Below, in pieces: positions 2,763-19,407 of a stretch of DNA of 28,465 nucleotides (its first letter is position 1; each line of letters begins with the position of its first letter). A program made the translations under genes and the position numbers. The notes under the pieces were generated by a model. The model was not told where the DNA came from, did not search any database, and was given only the letters and a program-made list of their open reading frames with translations. The stretch covers positions 1 through 28,465 of the forward strand of contig JAMOTN010000050.1 of assembly GCA_027062325.1 (NCBI GenBank). The letters run 5' to 3'. The stretch is from a bacterium (GTDB lineage: Bacteria > JAMOTN01).

Positions 2763-2841
2763 CAAATGATGATGAGGCTGGACTTGTGATATTGGTATGC
2801 TCTACAAAGTTTTCTAGGAGATGTTAAAGGGGGGAGACGTT

Positions 2842-4140
2842 GTGGGAAGAACTTTTGCATACGGTGGAATTCACCCCGAGTACAACAAACACTTAAGTAG
2901 GGACAAGAAGATTGAAGTATTTGATCTTGTTGATGAGTACTACGTTCCTATGCAGCAGCACATAGGGAAGCCTGCTCGCTGCCTTGTTAAGAAAGGAGAT
3001 AAGGTAGAGGTTGGACAAAAGATTGGAGAGGCAGATGGATTTATCTCTGCAAACATTCATGCTCCTGTTACAGGAACTGTGGTTGACGTTGTTCGTTGGC
3101 CAACTCCCGTTGGATTTGAAGTTGAAACTGTTGTGATAGAGAGAGATAAGGCTTACAAAGGTGAGATGCAGCTGCGTGACAGAAACTGGAGGACTTTAGC
3201 TGTAAAAGAGCTTTTGGAGATTGTAAAAGAGGCAGGAATTGTTGGATTGGGTGGAGCTACGTTTCCAACCCATGTTAAGTTGGCTCCACAAGATCATGTG
3301 GATGTGCTACTTCTGAATGGAGCGGAGTGTGAGCCGTATTTGACGTGTGATCACAGGATAATGGTTGAGCGTGCTGAGGATATAGTAACAGGTGCTCAGA
3401 TAATGGCAAAAATTTTGGGTGTGGAAAGAATAATAATTGGAGTTGAAGATAACAAGCCTGATGCAATAGATGCATTGAGGCATGCAAGTTTAAAAATTCC
3501 AAGCATAAAAGTTGTAGAATTGGAGACGGCGTATCCTCAGGGAGCTGAGAAGCAGCTCATATATGCTTGTACAGGAAGAGTTGTTCCTAAAGGGGCACTA
3601 CCTTCCAAAGCTGGTGTCGTTGTAAACAACGTTGGAACTGCACTTGCTGTTTTTGAGGCTGTTGTATTTGGGAAACCCCTTATTGAACGAGTTGTAACAG
3701 TTACTGGAAAAGTAGGGATGCCTGCAAATCTGCTTATAAGAATAGGAACGCCGTTTGAGAAAGTGTTGAAGGTTGCGGAGATTGCAACAGAAACTCCCAA
3801 GATTATATCCGGTGGTCCAATGATGGGAATAGCGCAATCAACACTTTCTGTTCCAGTTGTTAAGGGAACTAGTGGAATACTAGTTTTAGATGAAGGAGAG
3901 GCTGCAAACTGGGAAGAGTGGAATGATTGTTTGAACTGTGCAGCTTGCATAGATGCATGTCCTATGAATTTGTTGCCTTCTGTGTTTTCAAGAGGAGTTG
4001 AGCTTGGTAAGATTGAGGATCTTAGGAAATTGGATGTGATGAGTTGTATAGAGTGTGGATGTTGTTCTTATGTGTGTCCAGCAGGAAGGCCAATTGTCCA
4101 ATTTATAAGGGTTGCTAAGGCAATTTTAAGAAGAGGATAG
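2842..4140 (+). CDS. rnfC: RnfC, NADH-binding Fe-S subunit of the Rnf complex
   Basis: Peripheral subunit of the Rnf ferredoxin:NAD oxidoreductase; it carries the nucleotide/FMN site where NAD is reduced. 432 residues. The N-terminal GGIHPEYNKHLS matches RnfC, followed by a biotinyl-lipoyl-like segment (about 45-100) and a Complex I 51 kDa-like domain with GLGGATFPTHVKL and NGAECEPYLTCDHR. Two CxxCxxCxxxCP motifs (C363/366/369/373 and C402/405/408/412) bind two [4Fe-4S] clusters. The GTG at 2842 is preferred because GGGGGGAG at 2829-2836 is well placed; for the ATG at 2821 the only purine-rich stretch touches the start codon. First gene of rnfCDGEAXB. Confidence 0.96.
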   Translation: MGRTFAYGGIHPEYNKHLSRDKKIEVFDLVDEYYVPMQQHIGKPARCLVKKGDKVEVGQKIGEADGFISANIHAPVTGTVVDVVRWPTPVGFEVETVVIERDKAYKGEMQLRDRNWRTLAVKELLEIVKEAGIVGLGGATFPTHVKLAPQDHVDVLLLNGAECEPYLTCDHRIMVERAEDIVTGAQIMAKILGVERIIIGVEDNKPDAIDALRHASLKIPSIKVVELETAYPQGAEKQLIYACTGRVVPKGALPSKAGVVVNNVGTALAVFEAVVFGKPLIERVVTVTGKVGMPANLLIRIGTPFEKVLKVAEIATETPKIISGGPMMGIAQSTLSVPVVKGTSGILVLDEGEAANWEEWNDCLNCAACIDACPMNLLPSVFSRGVELGKIEDLRKLDVMSCIECGCCSYVCPAGRPIVQFIRVAKAILRRG

Positions 4141-4196: not shown

Positions 4197-5219
4197 GTGA
4201 GGATACCTTACAACTTGGAAGAGCGATTTAAAGTTAGTTCATCACCACACGTTAGGAAATCTTGGACTGTTAGAAGTGTCATGCTAGATGTATTGATAGC
4301 TCTTATTCCAGCAGTGCTTGCAAGTTGGTACTTTTTTGGAATAAGAGCCATGCTTGTTGAGCTTGTTTGTGTATTAGCCGCTGTTTTATCTGAAGCAATT
4401 GTTCAATACCTATTTTTTGAAAAAGTTACAGTTGATGATTTGAGCGCGGTTGTTACAGGTTTATTGCTTGCAATGTGTTTGCCTCCAAGTTTGCCGTTGT
4501 GGATTGCGGCTGTTGGTTCGATTGTAGCAATTATAATAGGAAAGCAGGTGTTTGGCGGGTTAGGAAATAATCCATTCAACCCGGCACACGTTGGTAGGGC
4601 AGTGTTACTCGCTTCTTGGCCTGTTTACATGACTACTTGGATGGTGCCAACAAAACCTGGAACTAGTCAGTGGTTGGGGACAGATATTGTCACTTCAGCA
4701 ACTCCTCTTGGAATGTTGAAAGAGAGTGGTTATAACTGGGCAGTTGTTGCTAAAAAGGTAAGTTTGTGGGATCTTTGGATTGGGAATGTGGGTGGATCCC
4801 TTGGTGAAACAAGTGCCATAGCTATTTTGATTGGAGGACTTTACCTATTGTGGAGAGGTGTTATAACTTGGCATATCCCAGTAACTTATTTGGGAACGGT
4901 ATTTCTATTGTCGCTCATATTTGAAGGACCTGCTAAGCACATTGCTGATGCTGTTGTGTATCCTCCTCTATTTCATTTGGCAGCTGGTGGTTTGATGATC
5001 GGTGCTTGGTTTATGGCCACCGATATGGTTACTACTCCTTTGAGCAAAGGTGGGAGGATTGCGTTTGGAATAGGTGCTGGTGTTTTGGTCTTCTTGATAA
5101 GAAAATTTGGAGGATATCCAGAGGGAGTTTGTTATTCAATTTTGATAATGAATGCTTTCACACCGCTTCTTGATAGGATATTCAAACCTAAAACTTTTGG
5201 TGAGGTGACTCAGGGATGA
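4197..5219 (+). CDS. rnfD: RnfD, membrane flavoprotein subunit of Rnf
   Basis: Integral membrane subunit of Rnf, 340 residues, with repeated hydrophobic helices and a covalently bound FMN. The flavin attachment motif TSATPLG gives acceptor Thr169. Other RnfD/NqrB-like signatures are GNNPFNPAHVGRA (123-135), GNVGGSLGETSA near residue 200, and the late MATDMVTTP with GGYPEGVCYSILIMN. The GTG start follows a strong GGGGAGGGAGGAG. The gene ends with ATGA shared with the rnfG start. A 56-base gap separates it from rnfC, with no visible terminator. Confidence 0.96.
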   Translation: MRIPYNLEERFKVSSSPHVRKSWTVRSVMLDVLIALIPAVLASWYFFGIRAMLVELVCVLAAVLSEAIVQYLFFEKVTVDDLSAVVTGLLLAMCLPPSLPLWIAAVGSIVAIIIGKQVFGGLGNNPFNPAHVGRAVLLASWPVYMTTWMVPTKPGTSQWLGTDIVTSATPLGMLKESGYNWAVVAKKVSLWDLWIGNVGGSLGETSAIAILIGGLYLLWRGVITWHIPVTYLGTVFLLSLIFEGPAKHIADAVVYPPLFHLAAGGLMIGAWFMATDMVTTPLSKGGRIAFGIGAGVLVFLIRKFGGYPEGVCYSILIMNAFTPLLDRIFKPKTFGEVTQG

Positions 5220-6175
5220 AGGGAATATGGCCTATATTGGCGTTGACTATAGTGGCTGTTATCTCTGGAGCAGTTTTGAGTTGGATTTGGGATAAAACCA
5301 ATCCAATAATTACCAGAATGGATAGAGAAAAAGAGGAGATAGCGCGCCGCATGTTAGTTGTTCCAGAGGATATAGACTTATCTATGATTCCGTCTGGCGT
5401 TTATTCATGGCCAAATTTGGGAGTGAAAGACAGAAATGGGTTTGAAAGTTTTAAGGGAAAAGAAGGAGTCCAAGAGTACTTATTGATTTGGATAGACGAT
5501 TTGAAGAAAGTCCATGTGAAGTACAACGTGCCGAAAGATAAGGCAAAGTTTATTGAGAAAGCTGTTGAAGCCATAAATAAAAGCATGAAGATCACACCGC
5601 AAATTTGTGGGGATTGGGATGTCTATCAGCTGTTTAAAAAGGCTATAAGCTCTACTGTTAACTTTAAAAAAGTCCTTGTGTTAGCTGATGGCACCAAGAT
5701 TGAAGCTAGTAAAGATGGATTTATAGGTAAGGATGGACAAAAATACGTGGTAAAAGGTGATAAGGTGTTCTGTAATGGTAAAGAGGTAAAAGGAAAGGTT
5801 TACTACATAGCTTATTTAGGGGGGAAGCGAGTTGCTGCGGTATTTAAAGTTGAGCCTGTTGGATATTCTAGTAAATTGCCGACACTTGTTGCTGCAACTT
5901 TTGATGGAACAGTTCTTGGTATCAAAATTCTCTCTCAGAGTGAGACTCCCGGCCTTGGAGCACGTTGCGTGGAGATAAAAGAGGGAGAGCACGAACCATG
6001 GTTCCAGAAGCAATTTTCTGGTTTGAAGGTTGACGAGATTTACTTGACTGAAAAAGATGAAAAACCCGGTAAAATTCATCAAATTACGGCTTCTACTATC
6101 ACCTCTAGGGCAGTTACCAAGGGAGTAAGAGAAGGTGTGCAGGAGTTTCTCAAAATGTTTGGTAAGGAGGGATAA
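5216..6175 (+). CDS. rnfG: RnfG, flavin-carrying subunit of Rnf, enlarged
   Basis: Rnf subunit with one N-terminal membrane helix (about residues 4-25) and an extracytoplasmic FMN domain. The flavinylation motif is TASTITSRA, acceptor Thr294, and SETPGLGARCVEI is the family hallmark. It has 319 residues whereas family members are usually near 200; the extra material sits between the first helix and the FMN domain, roughly residues 60-180. It includes a helix-rich stretch (KDKAKFIEKAVEAINKSMK) and a Gly/Lys-rich hairpin-like stretch (DGTKIEASKDGFIGKDGQKY). The motif order is otherwise intact, so I read this as an inserted domain rather than a fusion error. The start codon overlaps the rnfD stop by four bases. 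Confidence 0.93.
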   Translation: MKGIWPILALTIVAVISGAVLSWIWDKTNPIITRMDREKEEIARRMLVVPEDIDLSMIPSGVYSWPNLGVKDRNGFESFKGKEGVQEYLLIWIDDLKKVHVKYNVPKDKAKFIEKAVEAINKSMKITPQICGDWDVYQLFKKAISSTVNFKKVLVLADGTKIEASKDGFIGKDGQKYVVKGDKVFCNGKEVKGKVYYIAYLGGKRVAAVFKVEPVGYSSKLPTLVAATFDGTVLGIKILSQSETPGLGARCVEIKEGEHEPWFQKQFSGLKVDEIYLTEKDEKPGKIHQITASTITSRAVTKGVREGVQEFLKMFGKEG

Positions 6176-6177
6176 GA

Positions 6178-6762
6178 ATGAGGTTTTTTAGGATAATATG
6201 GGATGGAATTACAAAAGAAAATCAGGTTTTCAAAGCAGCCCTTGGTTTGTGTCCAACGCTTGCAGTTTCTACCTCTGTTGAAAATGCTATTGGAATGGGT
6301 GTAGCTGCTACTTTGGTTTTAATTGGTTCAAACTTTGTTGTATCTCTTATAAGGAATTGGGTGCCCAAGCAGGTTAGAATTCCAATATTTATTGTTGTTA
6401 TTGCAACTTTTGTGACCGCTGTTGATTTGACGATGCATGCTTATTTTCCAGCTCTTCATGAAAAACTTGGAATATTTGTTCCATTGATAGTTGTTAACTG
6501 TATAATCTTGGGAAGGGCAGAAGCTTTTGCTTCTAAAAACAATCCTTTTTATTCAATAGCGGATGGAATTGGAATTGGAATTGGTTTTATGTTGGGATTA
6601 ATGCTTCTAGCAACTTTTAGAGAAGTATTAGGAGCTGGGACTTTCTTGGGTAAAAGCTTAGGAATAAAGGAACCTGCTCTCATTATGATTTTGCCACCTG
6701 GAGCATTCTTAACAATAGGATTCTTGATGGCATTCTTCAACTGGGCAGGAGGGGATAAGTAA
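6178..6762 (+). CDS. rnfE: RnfE, membrane subunit of Rnf
   Basis: 194-residue integral membrane protein with about six helices, part of the ion-translocating core. ALGLCPTLAVS places Cys25, and VPLIVVNCIILGRAEAFAS places Cys108, the half-helix cysteines that, with those of RnfA, hold the intramembrane [2Fe-2S] cluster in this family. Late motifs DGIGIGIGFMLGL and FREVLGAGTF are typical. AAGGAGG overlaps the end of rnfG, 7 bases before the ATG, indicating coupled translation. Homologous to RnfA and NqrD. Confidence 0.95.
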   Translation: MRFFRIIWDGITKENQVFKAALGLCPTLAVSTSVENAIGMGVAATLVLIGSNFVVSLIRNWVPKQVRIPIFIVVIATFVTAVDLTMHAYFPALHEKLGIFVPLIVVNCIILGRAEAFASKNNPFYSIADGIGIGIGFMLGLMLLATFREVLGAGTFLGKSLGIKEPALIMILPPGAFLTIGFLMAFFNWAGGDK

Positions 6763-7343
6763 TGGAGTTGAAAGAGTTATTTGCAATATTTATGGCTAGT
6801 GTTTTTTCTCAAAATATTGTATTAACTCAGTTTTTGGGAATATGCCCGTTTATGGGAGTTTCCAAGAAGCTGGAGACGGCTGTTGGAATGTCAGGAGCAG
6901 TTTTGTTTGTTATGCTGCTTGCAAGTATTGTTACGTATTTCTTGCAGTATTATGTTTTAGTTCCGTATGGGATAGGTTATCTTCAAACTGTTACGTTTAT
7001 ATTGGTTATAGCAAGTTTAGTGCAGTTTGTTGAGATGGTTATGCAGAAGTTTTTCCCAGCTCTTTATGCAGCGTTGGGAATATTTTTGCCGCTGATAACA
7101 ACTAACTGTGCTGTTTTAGGTGTTGCGCTTTTGAACATAAAGAAACACTATAACTTTGTGGAGATGATAGTTCACACCGTGGGAATAGCAACTGGTTTTG
7201 CACTGGCATTGGTTTTGCTTGCGACTTTGAGAGAGAGATTGGAATTTGCTAAAATTCCGAAGCCATTTCAGGGCTTACCTATAGCTTTTATTACTGCAGG
7301 TTTGCTTGCAGTTGCCTTTATGGGTTTCATAGGATTGTTCTAG
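6762..7343 (+). CDS. rnfA: RnfA, membrane subunit of Rnf
   Basis: 193-residue integral membrane partner of RnfE. NIVLTQFLGICPFMGVS with Cys28 and LPLITTNCAVLGVAL with Cys116 are the expected cluster-binding half-helices, and the paired RnfA/RnfE fold is inverted in the membrane. The start ATG shares one base with the rnfE stop, so the two are translationally coupled. Length and motifs are normal. Confidence 0.95.
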   Translation: MELKELFAIFMASVFSQNIVLTQFLGICPFMGVSKKLETAVGMSGAVLFVMLLASIVTYFLQYYVLVPYGIGYLQTVTFILVIASLVQFVEMVMQKFFPALYAALGIFLPLITTNCAVLGVALLNIKKHYNFVEMIVHTVGIATGFALALVLLATLRERLEFAKIPKPFQGLPIAFITAGLLAVAFMGFIGLF

Positions 7344-7367
7344 TTATTGGGTATCTTAGGAGTGGTT

Positions 7368-7802
7368 GTGTTGAAAGATATTAAGAGTAGGTTGGTTTTT
7401 GCAGTGTTTGTAATTGCGTTATTAGTGTTTATAGGATATGAGCAGGGGAAGAGAAGTAGTTGTGAGAGGGATTTTTTGATAGGGGAAACTGTTGCTGAAA
7501 AAGTTACGAAAGAGGTTGCGATTAGTGAAGGAGCCTTGAATAGAAAAGTTGATACTGATGAAGTGAAAATATGGCCCACCCAAAAAGATCTTCCCTTACT
7601 AATAAAGCACTTGCCGAGGTTTGATTGTGGTGCGTGTGGATTTCCTACGTGCCGGGCTTTTGCAGAGGCTGTAATTGAAAAAAAGGCTTCTTACAGGGGA
7701 TGCTTCATAGATATGAGAAGGGGTGGAAGATTTGTTAGATGGTTTGAGGAGAAGTGGTTAAAAAATGCTAAGGGTGAGAAAGCTTTTAAAAAGGCTAAGT
7801 AA
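7368..7802 (+). CDS. Membrane-anchored single-cluster Fe-S protein between rnfA and rnfB (RnfX, provisional)
   Basis: A 144-residue protein with one N-terminal hydrophobic helix (about residues 9-23), a linker, and one motif C87-xx-C90-x4-C95-x16-C112. This spacing, and the residues FDCGACGFPTCRAFAEAV, copy the N-terminal cluster domain of RnfB (C45/48/53/70 in the rnfB of this operon). It looks like the N-terminal third of RnfB as a separate protein with a basic C-terminal tail, and lacks ferredoxin-type motifs. Within the operon, 24 bases after rnfA and 31 before rnfB, it is probably an extra electron carrier or an assembly factor of Rnf; that is inference. TTAGGAG at 7356-7362 supports GTG 7368 or TTG 7371 as start, rather than the TTG at 7347 that lies upstream of it. 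Confidence 0.8.
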   Translation: MLKDIKSRLVFAVFVIALLVFIGYEQGKRSSCERDFLIGETVAEKVTKEVAISEGALNRKVDTDEVKIWPTQKDLPLLIKHLPRFDCGACGFPTCRAFAEAVIEKKASYRGCFIDMRRGGRFVRWFEEKWLKNAKGEKAFKKAK

Positions 7803-7833: not shown

Positions 7834-8796
7834 ATGGCTGCTGTGATAACTATGGCAGTTTTAGGAATCTTCTTTGGAGGTGTTTTAGCCTTAAGTGCTA
7901 AGTATTTGAAAGTTGAAGAGGATCCACGTGTTGAGAAGATAGCTGAAATTTTACCACAAGCTAACTGTGGAGCTTGTGGATATCCTGGATGTAGTGGATT
8001 TGCTAAAGCTGTTGTGTCAGGGGAGGCTCCTGTAACTGGTTGTTTGCCCGGTGGAAAAGAGGTGGCTAAGAAGATAGCTGAAATTTTGGGAGTTGAAGCC
8101 GGAGCAATTGAAGAAAAAGTTGCTTTTGTTTTCTGCTCAGGGGGAGATAGAGCTAAGGATAAAAATAGATATGCAGGGATTGAGTCTTGTACGGCAGCTA
8201 AGGCCTTGGGGGGAACTAAGGCATGCTACTTTGCATGTTATGGTTTGGGAGATTGTGTTGAGGCATGTCCATTTGATGCGATTCACATTGTTGATGGGCG
8301 TGCTGTGGTTGATTTTGAAAAGTGTACAGGTTGTGGTGCTTGCGTTAAGGCATGTCCACAAGGAATCATAGAGCTTATTCCTCGTAGTAAAGCTGTAGTG
8401 TTTGTCGCTTGTTCTTCATGTGATTCCGGAGCTATTGCTAGGAAGTACTGTGCAAATCCATGTATAGGGTGTAAAATGTGTGAGCGAGTATGTCCCACAG
8501 GTGCTATAAAAGTTGAGGGAAATCTTGCACGCATAGATTATGAGAAATGTATAGGTTGTGGAGCATGTGCTGCTGTGTGTCCAACAAAGGTCATAAGATT
8601 TGATGGAGTCCATAAGGTGGCAAAAATTAACGATGACTGTGTTGGGTGCACTCTTTGTGCTAAAGTATGCCCTGTTAAAGCAATTACGGGTGAGGTTAAG
8701 GAGAAACATGAGGTTGATCCAGACAAATGTGTTGGTTGTACGAAGTGCGTTGAAAAGTGTCCTAAGAATGCAATAGAGATGGTTGAGAAGCAATAG
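7834..8796 (+). CDS. rnfB: RnfB, multi-cluster ferredoxin-like subunit of Rnf
   Basis: Electron-entry subunit that accepts electrons from ferredoxin; 320 residues with an N-terminal membrane helix (2-21). C45/48/53/70 form the N-terminal cluster site. Ferredoxin-type motifs follow at C131/135/141/145, C164/167/170/174, C210/213/216/220, C239/242/245/249, C269/272/275/279 and C299/302/305/309, giving room for seven [4Fe-4S] clusters. The extra cysteines C193, C196 and C206 in the third block are usual for the clostridial type. Shorter RnfB proteins lack the last pair. The ATG follows AGGGGTGG. It is the last gene of the Rnf run; the radical SAM gene follows after 23 bases. Confidence 0.95.
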   Translation: MAAVITMAVLGIFFGGVLALSAKYLKVEEDPRVEKIAEILPQANCGACGYPGCSGFAKAVVSGEAPVTGCLPGGKEVAKKIAEILGVEAGAIEEKVAFVFCSGGDRAKDKNRYAGIESCTAAKALGGTKACYFACYGLGDCVEACPFDAIHIVDGRAVVDFEKCTGCGACVKACPQGIIELIPRSKAVVFVACSSCDSGAIARKYCANPCIGCKMCERVCPTGAIKVEGNLARIDYEKCIGCGACAAVCPTKVIRFDGVHKVAKINDDCVGCTLCAKVCPVKAITGEVKEKHEVDPDKCVGCTKCVEKCPKNAIEMVEKQ

Positions 8797-16362: not shown

Positions 16363-19300
16363 CTATCTCATCTCTATTCTGGAGCGTGGTGTAGGCCTTA
16401 CTGGAGAAGGTGCAGTGGGCGAGGGGGATATCAAGTTTATTGATCGCCTACGTATGAAACGAGATATGTTTGTGTTTGAAGCAGAGAAAACCTTGAACAT
16501 GGATTTTCCAGAGGCTTTAGCTGATAGTTTAGCTTTTCTTATGTTTAAAGTGATCTTAAGTCTTCTTTTAAAGCCGTTGAGGTCTTTTGTTTCTATTATA
16601 AGGGGCAAACTTTGCCCTGCCATTTTGTCCCAGAAAATGAATTCTAGAGCTATTATTTTGCCTTCTACAGATGCGAAAATTGGAAGCTCTGGGGTTAGAT
16701 CAGTTAATTTAACACCGCTAGTTCCTTCAATCTGATCTATATTTTCGATTCCCTTCAATATGGCACCTGTAAAAAGTGAATTTGGTAAAAACCTTAATTT
16801 TATCATTCCGGATTTCAAAGCAGAGTTTTGAATTGGGTCAAATTCTCCAAAGTTGACTTTGAGTTTGAATGGAGTGGTTCGAACGATGGATGGTGCCGAG
16901 TTGTTGACGTATATTTTTAGTTCTTTTATACCTGCATTGGATGGATCTTGTGAGTTATCGTAAGGAACTATGGTAAGTAAGTAAGGAATCTTTGTATATA
17001 TCTCGAATTCATAGGAAGCTTCTTTTTCATTGTTTGCTGCCTCTCTAAGTATTATGTCACGCCAATTATTGCCGAGCATGTCATTTAGGATGGTTTTGAT
17101 TTTGTTCATTTGATGTGCGGAAACATAAGGTAGAGAGTTTGAACTTATAAAGATTTGAGTTAACTGTTTAATCATTGATCTGTTGTTGGAAGAGTCTATT
17201 AGATTGAACATAATTTTAAATGGATTGTCGTTTTCTTCTTGATAGTAGGCTTCTAGTAATCTGTCTATATTGGAGGATATGGAGTTAACTGAGTTTTTAA
17301 TATTATCTAATGCTTGCTTGAACGAGTAAAACCAGACATCAGGAATTGTATAATCTTCTGCGGCTTTGAAAGAGGCTATCAGATTTGCTCTTACTATATT
17401 TCTGCTAAAGTCTTTTCTAAGCATACGATATAGATTAGCAATTATATTTGGTCTGTCATTGTCAAGAGAGATAACTTGAAATGCCCTTGGGAAGTAAAAC
17501 GGTAGAACTTTTGATTTAACAGTGTTGAATTCATATCTATCGGTAAATATTTCGCTTTCTTTTATTCTGAATGAAATGTTTCCTTTGATTTGGGATTTGA
17601 GTGTGTTATTTATTGGAAGTTTATAACCGTAAATTTTCTCAAATACGTCACTTGGCCTGCCTAATTGATCTAGTATTCTGTCTTTGGAACCACGAATTCC
17701 ATAGTCATAGGCTAAAAGATAGATGTAAAAATTGGTATCTCCGCACGATGAGGGAGCCATAAGAGTTGTGAATAGGGATTTAACCTTCAGTGATCCTCGC
17801 TCACTATTTACGGGACTGATATCAAAACTTCTGTCTTCTTCCCATATTAGAGGAACAGCTCCAGAATTGTGGGGAGAGACAAAGAAAGATAAAACATCAC
17901 AATTCAGTTGTTCATCTTCGGTATATCTATTGGCATCGGTGACGAACAAAGTGATGGGGATTATGTCTCCACTCGGCATAATTTCCTTGTAAGTGTAAGG
18001 ATTACCTCCATTTGATGGTCTGCTGTCTCCCATCATAAGTGGTGGAGTAATGTCTAAAATCAAAAAGCCGAAAGGAGGTGTCGTGATGTACTTGGTGTCA
18101 CGAGATTCTTCAAATCTCAGTCTTGCATCGTCATCGCCTCTTTTTTCGACGTATATATTCACCTCAGAAATTTTAAACTTAATGTAAAATTCTACTGGGG
18201 AATTTGTAGGGTACTTCATAAATTCGTCGGCAAGTTTCAGTTTTATTGTGACTTTTGAATTTTCATTATCATTCTCAACTTTGTATTTAGAAGCTCCAGG
18301 TCTTATAGTATTTGAAATTTTATAGACAATTTTATTGGCAGAACGGTCAATGGTTTCTAAATCAGCATTTTTAATAAGTGGTTTTCCAGCACTTGCCAAG
18401 TCGAAGAGGTAGGGGAATTTGGTTTTGATTATGACGTAGACTTTTTCAAGAGCCATAGCTTTCATTATTAGAATCCTCCTTCTAGAATCAGATAATCTGG
18501 CAGTAGTTATAGGATCGTCGTTTAGTTTAACTTTGGCTATTATCTCATCTCCTTCTTTGCTTGTTTCTATTGAGATATGATGATTAAAGTATTTGCGTAT
18601 GTGCGTTCTGTCTTTAAAGAATTGGGAATTCTTAAAAATTGCTTCTACCTTTAAGTTAATTTGAGAGTCTTCTACACACCAACCGTTATTGTACATTGCA
18701 TTTCTTTCGTTGATTGCATCTCGGATTATGTCTTGGGTGATCGTCGCTGCACCTCCTGCACCTGTTAAGACGGTGTATATTCCAGTTAAAAATCCCCATA
18801 CATCTGCAAATGAAGAGGTGCGACCAAGAATTGCAAAATACGATTTTTTAACTTTTACTTCTAAAGAAGGAGTGTTTTGAATAACTTTGTAAGTGTCTTT
18901 TGGTAAAAAAGTTATGTCATTTTCCAAAGTTGTAGCGGTGGTAGCGTTTATAGTAAAAGCAATTGATGGAGCACTGGTAGAAGTTAGAACTTCAAGTGTT
19001 GCAGAGACAAATGCTATTCTATCTGGTGCTGTTATTGCTCCTGGAACGGTAGAAAAAAGCGTGTAAAATTCTGTGTAATCATTGGAAGATAAGTTTTCGT
19101 AGTTTATGATTACCATTGCTTTGTAGGGTTTAGAAGATCCAGAATAGACAAGTAGGCCATTTTTGAGATTGTTGATTAGGCTGTTTGCCTCAATGTTTCT
19201 GTCAATGTATGATACCCATCTACCATCTTGAGTAAGTATTTTTGACGATAGATGAACGTCACCTGATATATTGACATTCCCTAGAGAGGGAACTTTTAGG

Positions 19301-19407
19301 TAGACGCTGCCGTTGTTTATTAAAAATGAGAATGCAGAGGAGGAGATATTTAATACTATGAATGCGAGTATTAAAAATGAGCGAGTTCTCAATTTTATTC
19401 CAGCCAT
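16363..19407 (-). CDS. Giant exported protein of unknown function (lone minus-strand gene)
   Basis: A 1014-residue protein, the only minus-strand gene in the window. Start ATG at 19407 with GGGGTGATT upstream; a signal peptide covers residues 1-27 (basic MAGIKLRTR, a hydrophobic core, SSAFS). Beyond it I see long beta-rich, Asn/Ser/Ile-rich stretches like immunoglobulin/cadherin-type folds (FLILDITPPLMMGDS, PITLFVTDANRY, YLLTIVPYDNSQDPS, LKIYVNNSAPSI), separated by helical segments (near 670-770). The tail is basic and proline-rich (PSPTAPSPVRPTP). I found no enzyme motif, repeat unit or sortase signal. It may be a cell-surface or periplasmic structural protein. It is divergent from the DASS transporter gene and convergent with the FliO-like gene. 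Confidence 0.85.
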   Translation of the reverse strand: MAGIKLRTRSFLILAFIVLNISSSAFSFLINNGSVYLKVPSLGNVNISGDVHLSSKILTQDGRWVSYIDRNIEANSLINNLKNGLLVYSGSSKPYKAMVIINYENLSSNDYTEFYTLFSTVPGAITAPDRIAFVSATLEVLTSTSAPSIAFTINATTATTLENDITFLPKDTYKVIQNTPSLEVKVKKSYFAILGRTSSFADVWGFLTGIYTVLTGAGGAATITQDIIRDAINERNAMYNNGWCVEDSQINLKVEAIFKNSQFFKDRTHIRKYFNHHISIETSKEGDEIIAKVKLNDDPITTARLSDSRRRILIMKAMALEKVYVIIKTKFPYLFDLASAGKPLIKNADLETIDRSANKIVYKISNTIRPGASKYKVENDNENSKVTIKLKLADEFMKYPTNSPVEFYIKFKISEVNIYVEKRGDDDARLRFEESRDTKYITTPPFGFLILDITPPLMMGDSRPSNGGNPYTYKEIMPSGDIIPITLFVTDANRYTEDEQLNCDVLSFFVSPHNSGAVPLIWEEDRSFDISPVNSERGSLKVKSLFTTLMAPSSCGDTNFYIYLLAYDYGIRGSKDRILDQLGRPSDVFEKIYGYKLPINNTLKSQIKGNISFRIKESEIFTDRYEFNTVKSKVLPFYFPRAFQVISLDNDRPNIIANLYRMLRKDFSRNIVRANLIASFKAAEDYTIPDVWFYSFKQALDNIKNSVNSISSNIDRLLEAYYQEENDNPFKIMFNLIDSSNNRSMIKQLTQIFISSNSLPYVSAHQMNKIKTILNDMLGNNWRDIILREAANNEKEASYEFEIYTKIPYLLTIVPYDNSQDPSNAGIKELKIYVNNSAPSIVRTTPFKLKVNFGEFDPIQNSALKSGMIKLRFLPNSLFTGAILKGIENIDQIEGTSGVKLTDLTPELPIFASVEGKIIALEFIFWDKMAGQSLPLIIETKDLNGFKRRLKITLNIRKAKLSAKASGKSMFKVFSASNTNISRFIRRRSINLISPSPTAPSPVRPTPRSRIEMR

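Follow-up and report, generated by a model that had tools for sequence, protein, structure and literature searches.

The Rnf complex is considered an ancient enzyme of energy conservation, and electron entry via its mobile B8 domain is essential (PMC11889175). In A. woodii, this [4Fe-4S] domain of RnfB shifts its position between RnfA and RnfE and hands electrons on to an intramembrane [2Fe-2S] cluster, and its removal abolishes growth and activity (PMC11889175). The stretch of bacterial DNA analysed here (the window, 28,465 nucleotides) harbors an rnf operon with a further gene, here named X, between rnfA and rnfB. A sequence-only reading of this DNA had described the product of X as one membrane helix followed by a cysteine motif of the RnfB type, and had suggested a seventh subunit, a cluster donor or a regulator. 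The question raised by the locus is whether X takes part in electron transfer through Rnf, helps to build the complex, or is only carried along with its genes.

Gene X within a complete rnf operon

Gene X (7368..7802, forward strand) begins with a GTG codon at 7368, from which an uninterrupted reading frame of 144 codons extends to the stop at 7802. A Shine-Dalgarno sequence, AGGAG (7358..7362, forward strand), is located 5 nt before this start; alternative starts are a TTG at 7371, with a Shine-Dalgarno spacing of 8, and a TTG at 7347, which would lengthen the protein from 144 to 151 aa. The coding score amounts to 0.324 bits per codon, compared with 0.316 for rnfA and 0.279 for rnfB, and is about zero in the remaining two frames of X. 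X is a real, intact gene. Spacers of 24 and 31 bases separate it from rnfA upstream and rnfB downstream, and neither of these gaps contains a promoter-like or terminator-like consensus match. The strongest promoter-like match in the vicinity lies within rnfA (7227-7255), and shuffled DNA yields matches of this kind at least as often.

The operon is complete, with the order rnfCDGEA-X-B, and all of its genes are on the forward strand. In detail, it comprises rnfC (2821..4140; PF01512 and RnfC_N), rnfD (4197..5219; PF03116, E 1e-121), rnfG in a long form of 319 aa (5216..6175; PF04205 and a partial match to TIGR01947), rnfE (6178..6762; TIGR01948 above cut-off), rnfA (6762..7343; TIGR01943 above cut-off) and a full-length rnfB (7834..8796; NF005503 above cut-off) encoding a transmembrane (TM) helix, a PF04060 FeS domain and a polyferredoxin domain with several Fer4 matches. 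The gene downstream of rnfB encodes a radical SAM protein of the AmmeMemoRadiSam type. By eye, the cysteine motifs are kept in RnfA (LGICPF and TTNCAVLG) as well as in RnfE (LGLCPT and VVNCIILG); in A. woodii, it is these motifs that bind the [2Fe-2S] cluster within the membrane (PMC11889175).

The genome contains a single Rnf set, as judged from one rnfA match and one rnfE match, and X and RnfB are the only PF04060 proteins detected in it. Since the genome is 84% complete, absences of this kind are provisional. An ApbE flavin transferase is also encoded, and three domain matches to 2-oxoacid:ferredoxin oxidoreductase were found.

Two further features of the window were recorded. The long RnfG (5216-6175) has an insert with two cysteines ahead of the FMN-binding domain, and RnfG proteins of similar length occur at three surveyed loci (L144, L147 and L163). 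A 1014-aa reading frame with a signal-like hydrophobic N-terminal segment (16363-19407, reverse strand) is oriented opposite to its neighbours.

Domain structure of X and its relation to RnfB

From N- to C-terminus, X consists of one TM helix, a linker of 50-60 aa, one PF04060 FeS domain and a C-terminal helix rich in Lys and Arg. The TM helix is strongly hydrophobic, with a mean Kyte-Doolittle value of 2.3. The FeS domain (7611..7703, forward strand) was identified by Pfam scan with 51.7 bits against a gathering cut-off of 23 (E 6.9e-14), and this profile match is not due to chance. Its four cysteines are spaced exactly C-x2-C-x4-C-x16-C, identical to the RnfB of the same operon, and from these cysteines X is predicted to be a [4Fe-4S] protein. 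Reading frame, Pfam match and hydropathy thus bear out the arrangement of helix and motif that had been described for this gene. The same Pfam scan gave no Fer4 match in X and, at E <= 1, none to the NqrM family (PF04400).

An AlphaFold model of X, calculated from a shallow alignment, reaches pLDDT values of about 85-92 over residues 70-130 and assigns helices to residues 2-37 and 121-143 and an unstructured linker to residues 29-58. Superposition of residues 69-132 of the model and the FeS domain at the N-terminus of the corrinoid iron-sulfur protein gave an rmsd of 1.5 across 57 residues (Z 7.1). This gamma subunit, the best structural match of the model, shares the PF04060 fold with X; it differs in being soluble, fused to a corrinoid/TIM-barrel protein and encoded away from rnf. 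A Foldseek search of the model against the PDB gave nothing at E <= 0.001 (best value 0.17). The few chains that it ranked are FeS domains of corrinoid proteins, and RnfB chains were absent from them, which is uninformative since the RnfB domain is poorly resolved in Rnf structures.

The closest known counterpart of X is the N-terminal (B8) part of RnfB. There, too, a single TM helix precedes a PF04060 [4Fe-4S] domain, the cysteines are spaced identically, and the gene adjoins rnfA. A profile built from the RnfB domains of 108 survey sequences scores X at 50 bits (E 3e-17, from a search of two sequences). In contrast to RnfB, X has a longer linker, a basic tail and no polyferredoxin domain, and it coexists with a full RnfB. 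The distance from the helix to the first cysteine is about 55 residues in X and about 20 in RnfB, and a short linker with a DPR-type motif between helix and FeS domain, sought with a loose pattern and present in about 101 of 113 survey sequences (X being among those counted), is absent from X. Scores against curated RnfB models are far below the cut-offs, with 23.7 against 68.7 for TIGR01944 and 27.9 against 445 bits for NF041836. By these models, by the polyferredoxin domain (at least two Fer4) and by the linker, X is not an RnfB.

The sequence-only reading had also considered a decayed copy of rnfB. At the level of sequence, a decayed or recent partial duplicate was rejected: X has an intact reading frame and normal codon use, lacks the RnfB linker, and is like RnfB within a domain of 35 aa only. 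The identity with the RnfB of the same operon is 38-44% over about 36 residues, within the FeS domain only. Homology of the tail of X to the “GG..V...I..IL” region that follows the fourth cysteine of RnfB had seemed plausible by eye and received no support, with 836 of 1000 shuffled tails scoring equally or higher.

The tail carries a net charge of +7. It may be similar in nature to the basic “fishing hook” for ferredoxin that has been proposed at the C-terminus of A. woodii RnfB (PMC11889175); the RnfB encoded next to X has, by inspection, no basic tail. The orientation of X in the membrane is ambiguous from charges, with K, K and R in front of the helix, whereas the N-terminus of RnfB is uncharged and outside. 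These residues would be compatible with a carrier that faces the periplasm (N-in, C-out, like RnfG) and takes up electrons from the FMN of RnfG. We consider this highly improbable, as X has no twin-arginine signal, its tail is strongly basic, and the cluster of an Fe-S protein is normally inserted in the cytoplasm.

rnfA loci and searches for homologues

Pattern scanning of 84,980 named species genomes, together with searches of 386 diverse genomes and small phylum scans, revealed no full-length homologue of X among the matches listed. The collection contains no relative of its genome below domain level. The matches listed comprise the FeS domain only; they belong to RnfB, to soluble FeS proteins, to corrinoid protein gamma subunits, to hydrogenase-like proteins and to a permease that carries the domain at its C-terminus. 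The proposal to look for X-like proteins beside rnf in other genomes was followed by no full-length finding, and PF04060 itself is widespread away from rnf, as expected for a small module. Two apparent homologues were discarded. One (L193, genome G311), seemingly matching residues 22-114, is a soluble FeS protein of 122 aa, and the match upstream of its start crosses stop codons. The other (L087), the best profile-wide match in rnf loci, is explained by two FeS domains within one RnfB-like protein. In addition, a PF04060-type FeS motif was noted at the C-terminus of a protein resembling membrane permeases (L194:958-1665).

Hydrogenase-like accessory proteins and a permease carry PF04060 at their C-termini, which suggests that the domain also serves non-catalytic purposes. 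X might accordingly be a redox or iron sensor whose cluster responds to Rnf turnover and signals or gates electron entry. This role is quite improbable in our view, because no signalling or DNA-binding domain was found in X, which has a single short helical domain and a basic tail.

For comparison of gene order, 136 rnfA genes including that of the window were surveyed in 140 stretches drawn from the matches listed in diverse genomes, leaving out reading frames below 50 aa. Among these matches, rnfA is followed by an RnfB with Fer4 in 94 cases and by an FeS-only protein in eight (one cut by a contig end, another a split RnfB); nothing of the kind follows within 4 kb in 27 cases, and the contig ends in six. 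The window alone (1/136) has two FeS genes, with a separate one between rnfA and a full rnfB. The six-gene core has no such gene, as had been stated, and none of the other rnfA loci listed has one at this place.

Two other lineages have unrelated genes between rnfA and rnfB, namely one for a lipoprotein-like protein of 296 aa (L056:8239-9129) and one for a multi-span membrane protein of 241 aa (L057:4088-4813). Extra lineage-restricted Rnf components have moreover been described, with RnfH as a subunit and RnfX and RnfY as proposals (PMC4014512, PMC12174285). For both reasons, the location of the gene is by itself weak support for a subunit. The inserted genes, together with the lack of an X homologue in the genomes searched, are also in favour of X being a lineage-specific passenger, co-transcribed with rnf and acting elsewhere in the membrane or having little function. 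Such a role seems rather unlikely to us: X shares its module type with the adjacent RnfB, and no further PF04060 protein was detected in the genome; all four cysteines of X are kept and its codon use is normal.

RnfH of the Azotobacter vinelandii RNF1 system is a cytoplasmic subunit (PMC12174285). It resembles the role proposed for X in that it is an additional subunit, restricted in its lineages and encoded along with rnf, and differs from X in being soluble and free of cofactor. An additional Rnf gene as such is an already known phenomenon. What had been inferred from the operon therefore stands in part: X is a real gene absent from the six-gene core, whereas an extra Rnf-associated subunit is not in itself new. 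What appears to be new is a TM-anchored PF04060 protein beside a complete RnfB, which was found neither elsewhere in the survey nor in the family libraries and the literature searched.

Candidate roles of X

The reading that we favour, with slightly less than even confidence, is that X is a lineage-specific accessory subunit of Rnf, carrying a second copy of the mobile [4Fe-4S] domain of RnfB (B8) and donating electrons to the [2Fe-2S] cluster of RnfA and RnfE. X would present a separately anchored, B8-like cluster to RnfA and RnfE on the cytoplasmic side, and would work beside RnfB without replacing it. Electrons might reach this cluster by either of two routes, one in which X is an additional shuttle from the polyferredoxin domain of RnfB and another in which soluble ferredoxin, caught by the Lys/Arg-rich tail, enters directly. 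Cluster binding, cytoplasmic facing, membership in the complex and electron transfer are all points that we infer from sequence and from analogy to A. woodii.

In support of an accessory subunit, X is encoded intact within a complete rnf operon, and the genome codes for ApbE and for subunits of 2-oxoacid:ferredoxin oxidoreductase. The PF04060 domain with the cysteine spacing of RnfB, in a genome where these two are the sole such proteins found, likewise counts in favour of this reading. Several observations count against it. X is known from a single genome, and without a homologue no conserved linkage is seen; its helix and linker are unlike those of RnfB, homology of the tails is unsupported, and two other lineages have unrelated genes in its place. 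Besides, a second electron entry is not required, because RnfB is already complete here.

The main support for X as a second entry or shuttle comes from rnf loci with FeS-only proteins. At five of them (L050, L051, L052, L053 and L138), the protein after rnfA consists of a TM helix and one FeS domain, with nothing more and without Fer4. The RnfB-like protein next to rnfA at L087 has two FeS domains and no Fer4, and at L049:8475-9510 RnfB is divided into two adjacent genes, encoding a TM-FeS protein of 94 aa and a polyferredoxin of 249 aa with five Fer4. In one FeS-only genome (G106, 99% complete), a single PF04060 match and no second RnfB were detected. These loci suggest that one FeS domain with a membrane anchor can by itself make up the entire protein for electron entry. 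The variants at these seven loci resemble X in having a TM anchor and PF04060 without Fer4 right after rnfA, but they keep the RnfB-type linker and stand in for rnfB, whereas X is additional. The literature searched contained nothing specific on FeS-only or truncated RnfB or on a seventh Rnf subunit.

The strongest rival to an accessory electron-transfer subunit, in our opinion an unlikely one, is an assembly factor that brings iron or an Fe-S cluster to the intramembrane [2Fe-2S] site of RnfA and RnfE. The model for such a function is NqrM, a small membrane-bound Fe-S maturation protein from the nqr operon of V. cholerae that is needed for the same cluster of Na+-NQR (PMC12174285). X is likewise small, membrane-anchored and cysteine-bearing and adjoins rnfA, and a search of the genome for the NqrM family, run without a positive control and on a genome 84% complete, gave no match. 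NqrM (DUF539) thus resembles X as a small membrane-bound Fe-S related protein encoded with pump genes; it differs in belonging to another family, PF04400, to which X has no match, in its maturation role and in being found with nqr. X instead contains a redox-type PF04060 domain, which is known for electron transfer in RnfB and for which no assembly role was found in the literature searched. An NqrM-like maturation role is nevertheless more likely than a sensor, a passenger or a periplasmic orientation.

If X is an accessory subunit, a further step is possible, which we regard as doubtful: the Rnf of this bacterium would have two membrane-tethered B8-type [4Fe-4S] domains, one in RnfB and one in an independent seventh subunit. 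The latter would provide a second entry route into the [2Fe-2S] cluster of RnfA and RnfE, serving either a different donor or an exchange with ferredoxin that is faster or reversible. Such an entry point may exist in this Rnf, which is known from one genome, and the complex offers direct tests of what a B8 domain alone can do. Taken with the FeS-only and split forms of RnfB, X suggests a greater modularity of electron input than the six-subunit view of Rnf conveys. Separately from these forms, RnfB-like proteins of about 700 aa were observed after rnfA at five loci (L124, L125, L150, L155 and L171), which suggests further domain fusions.
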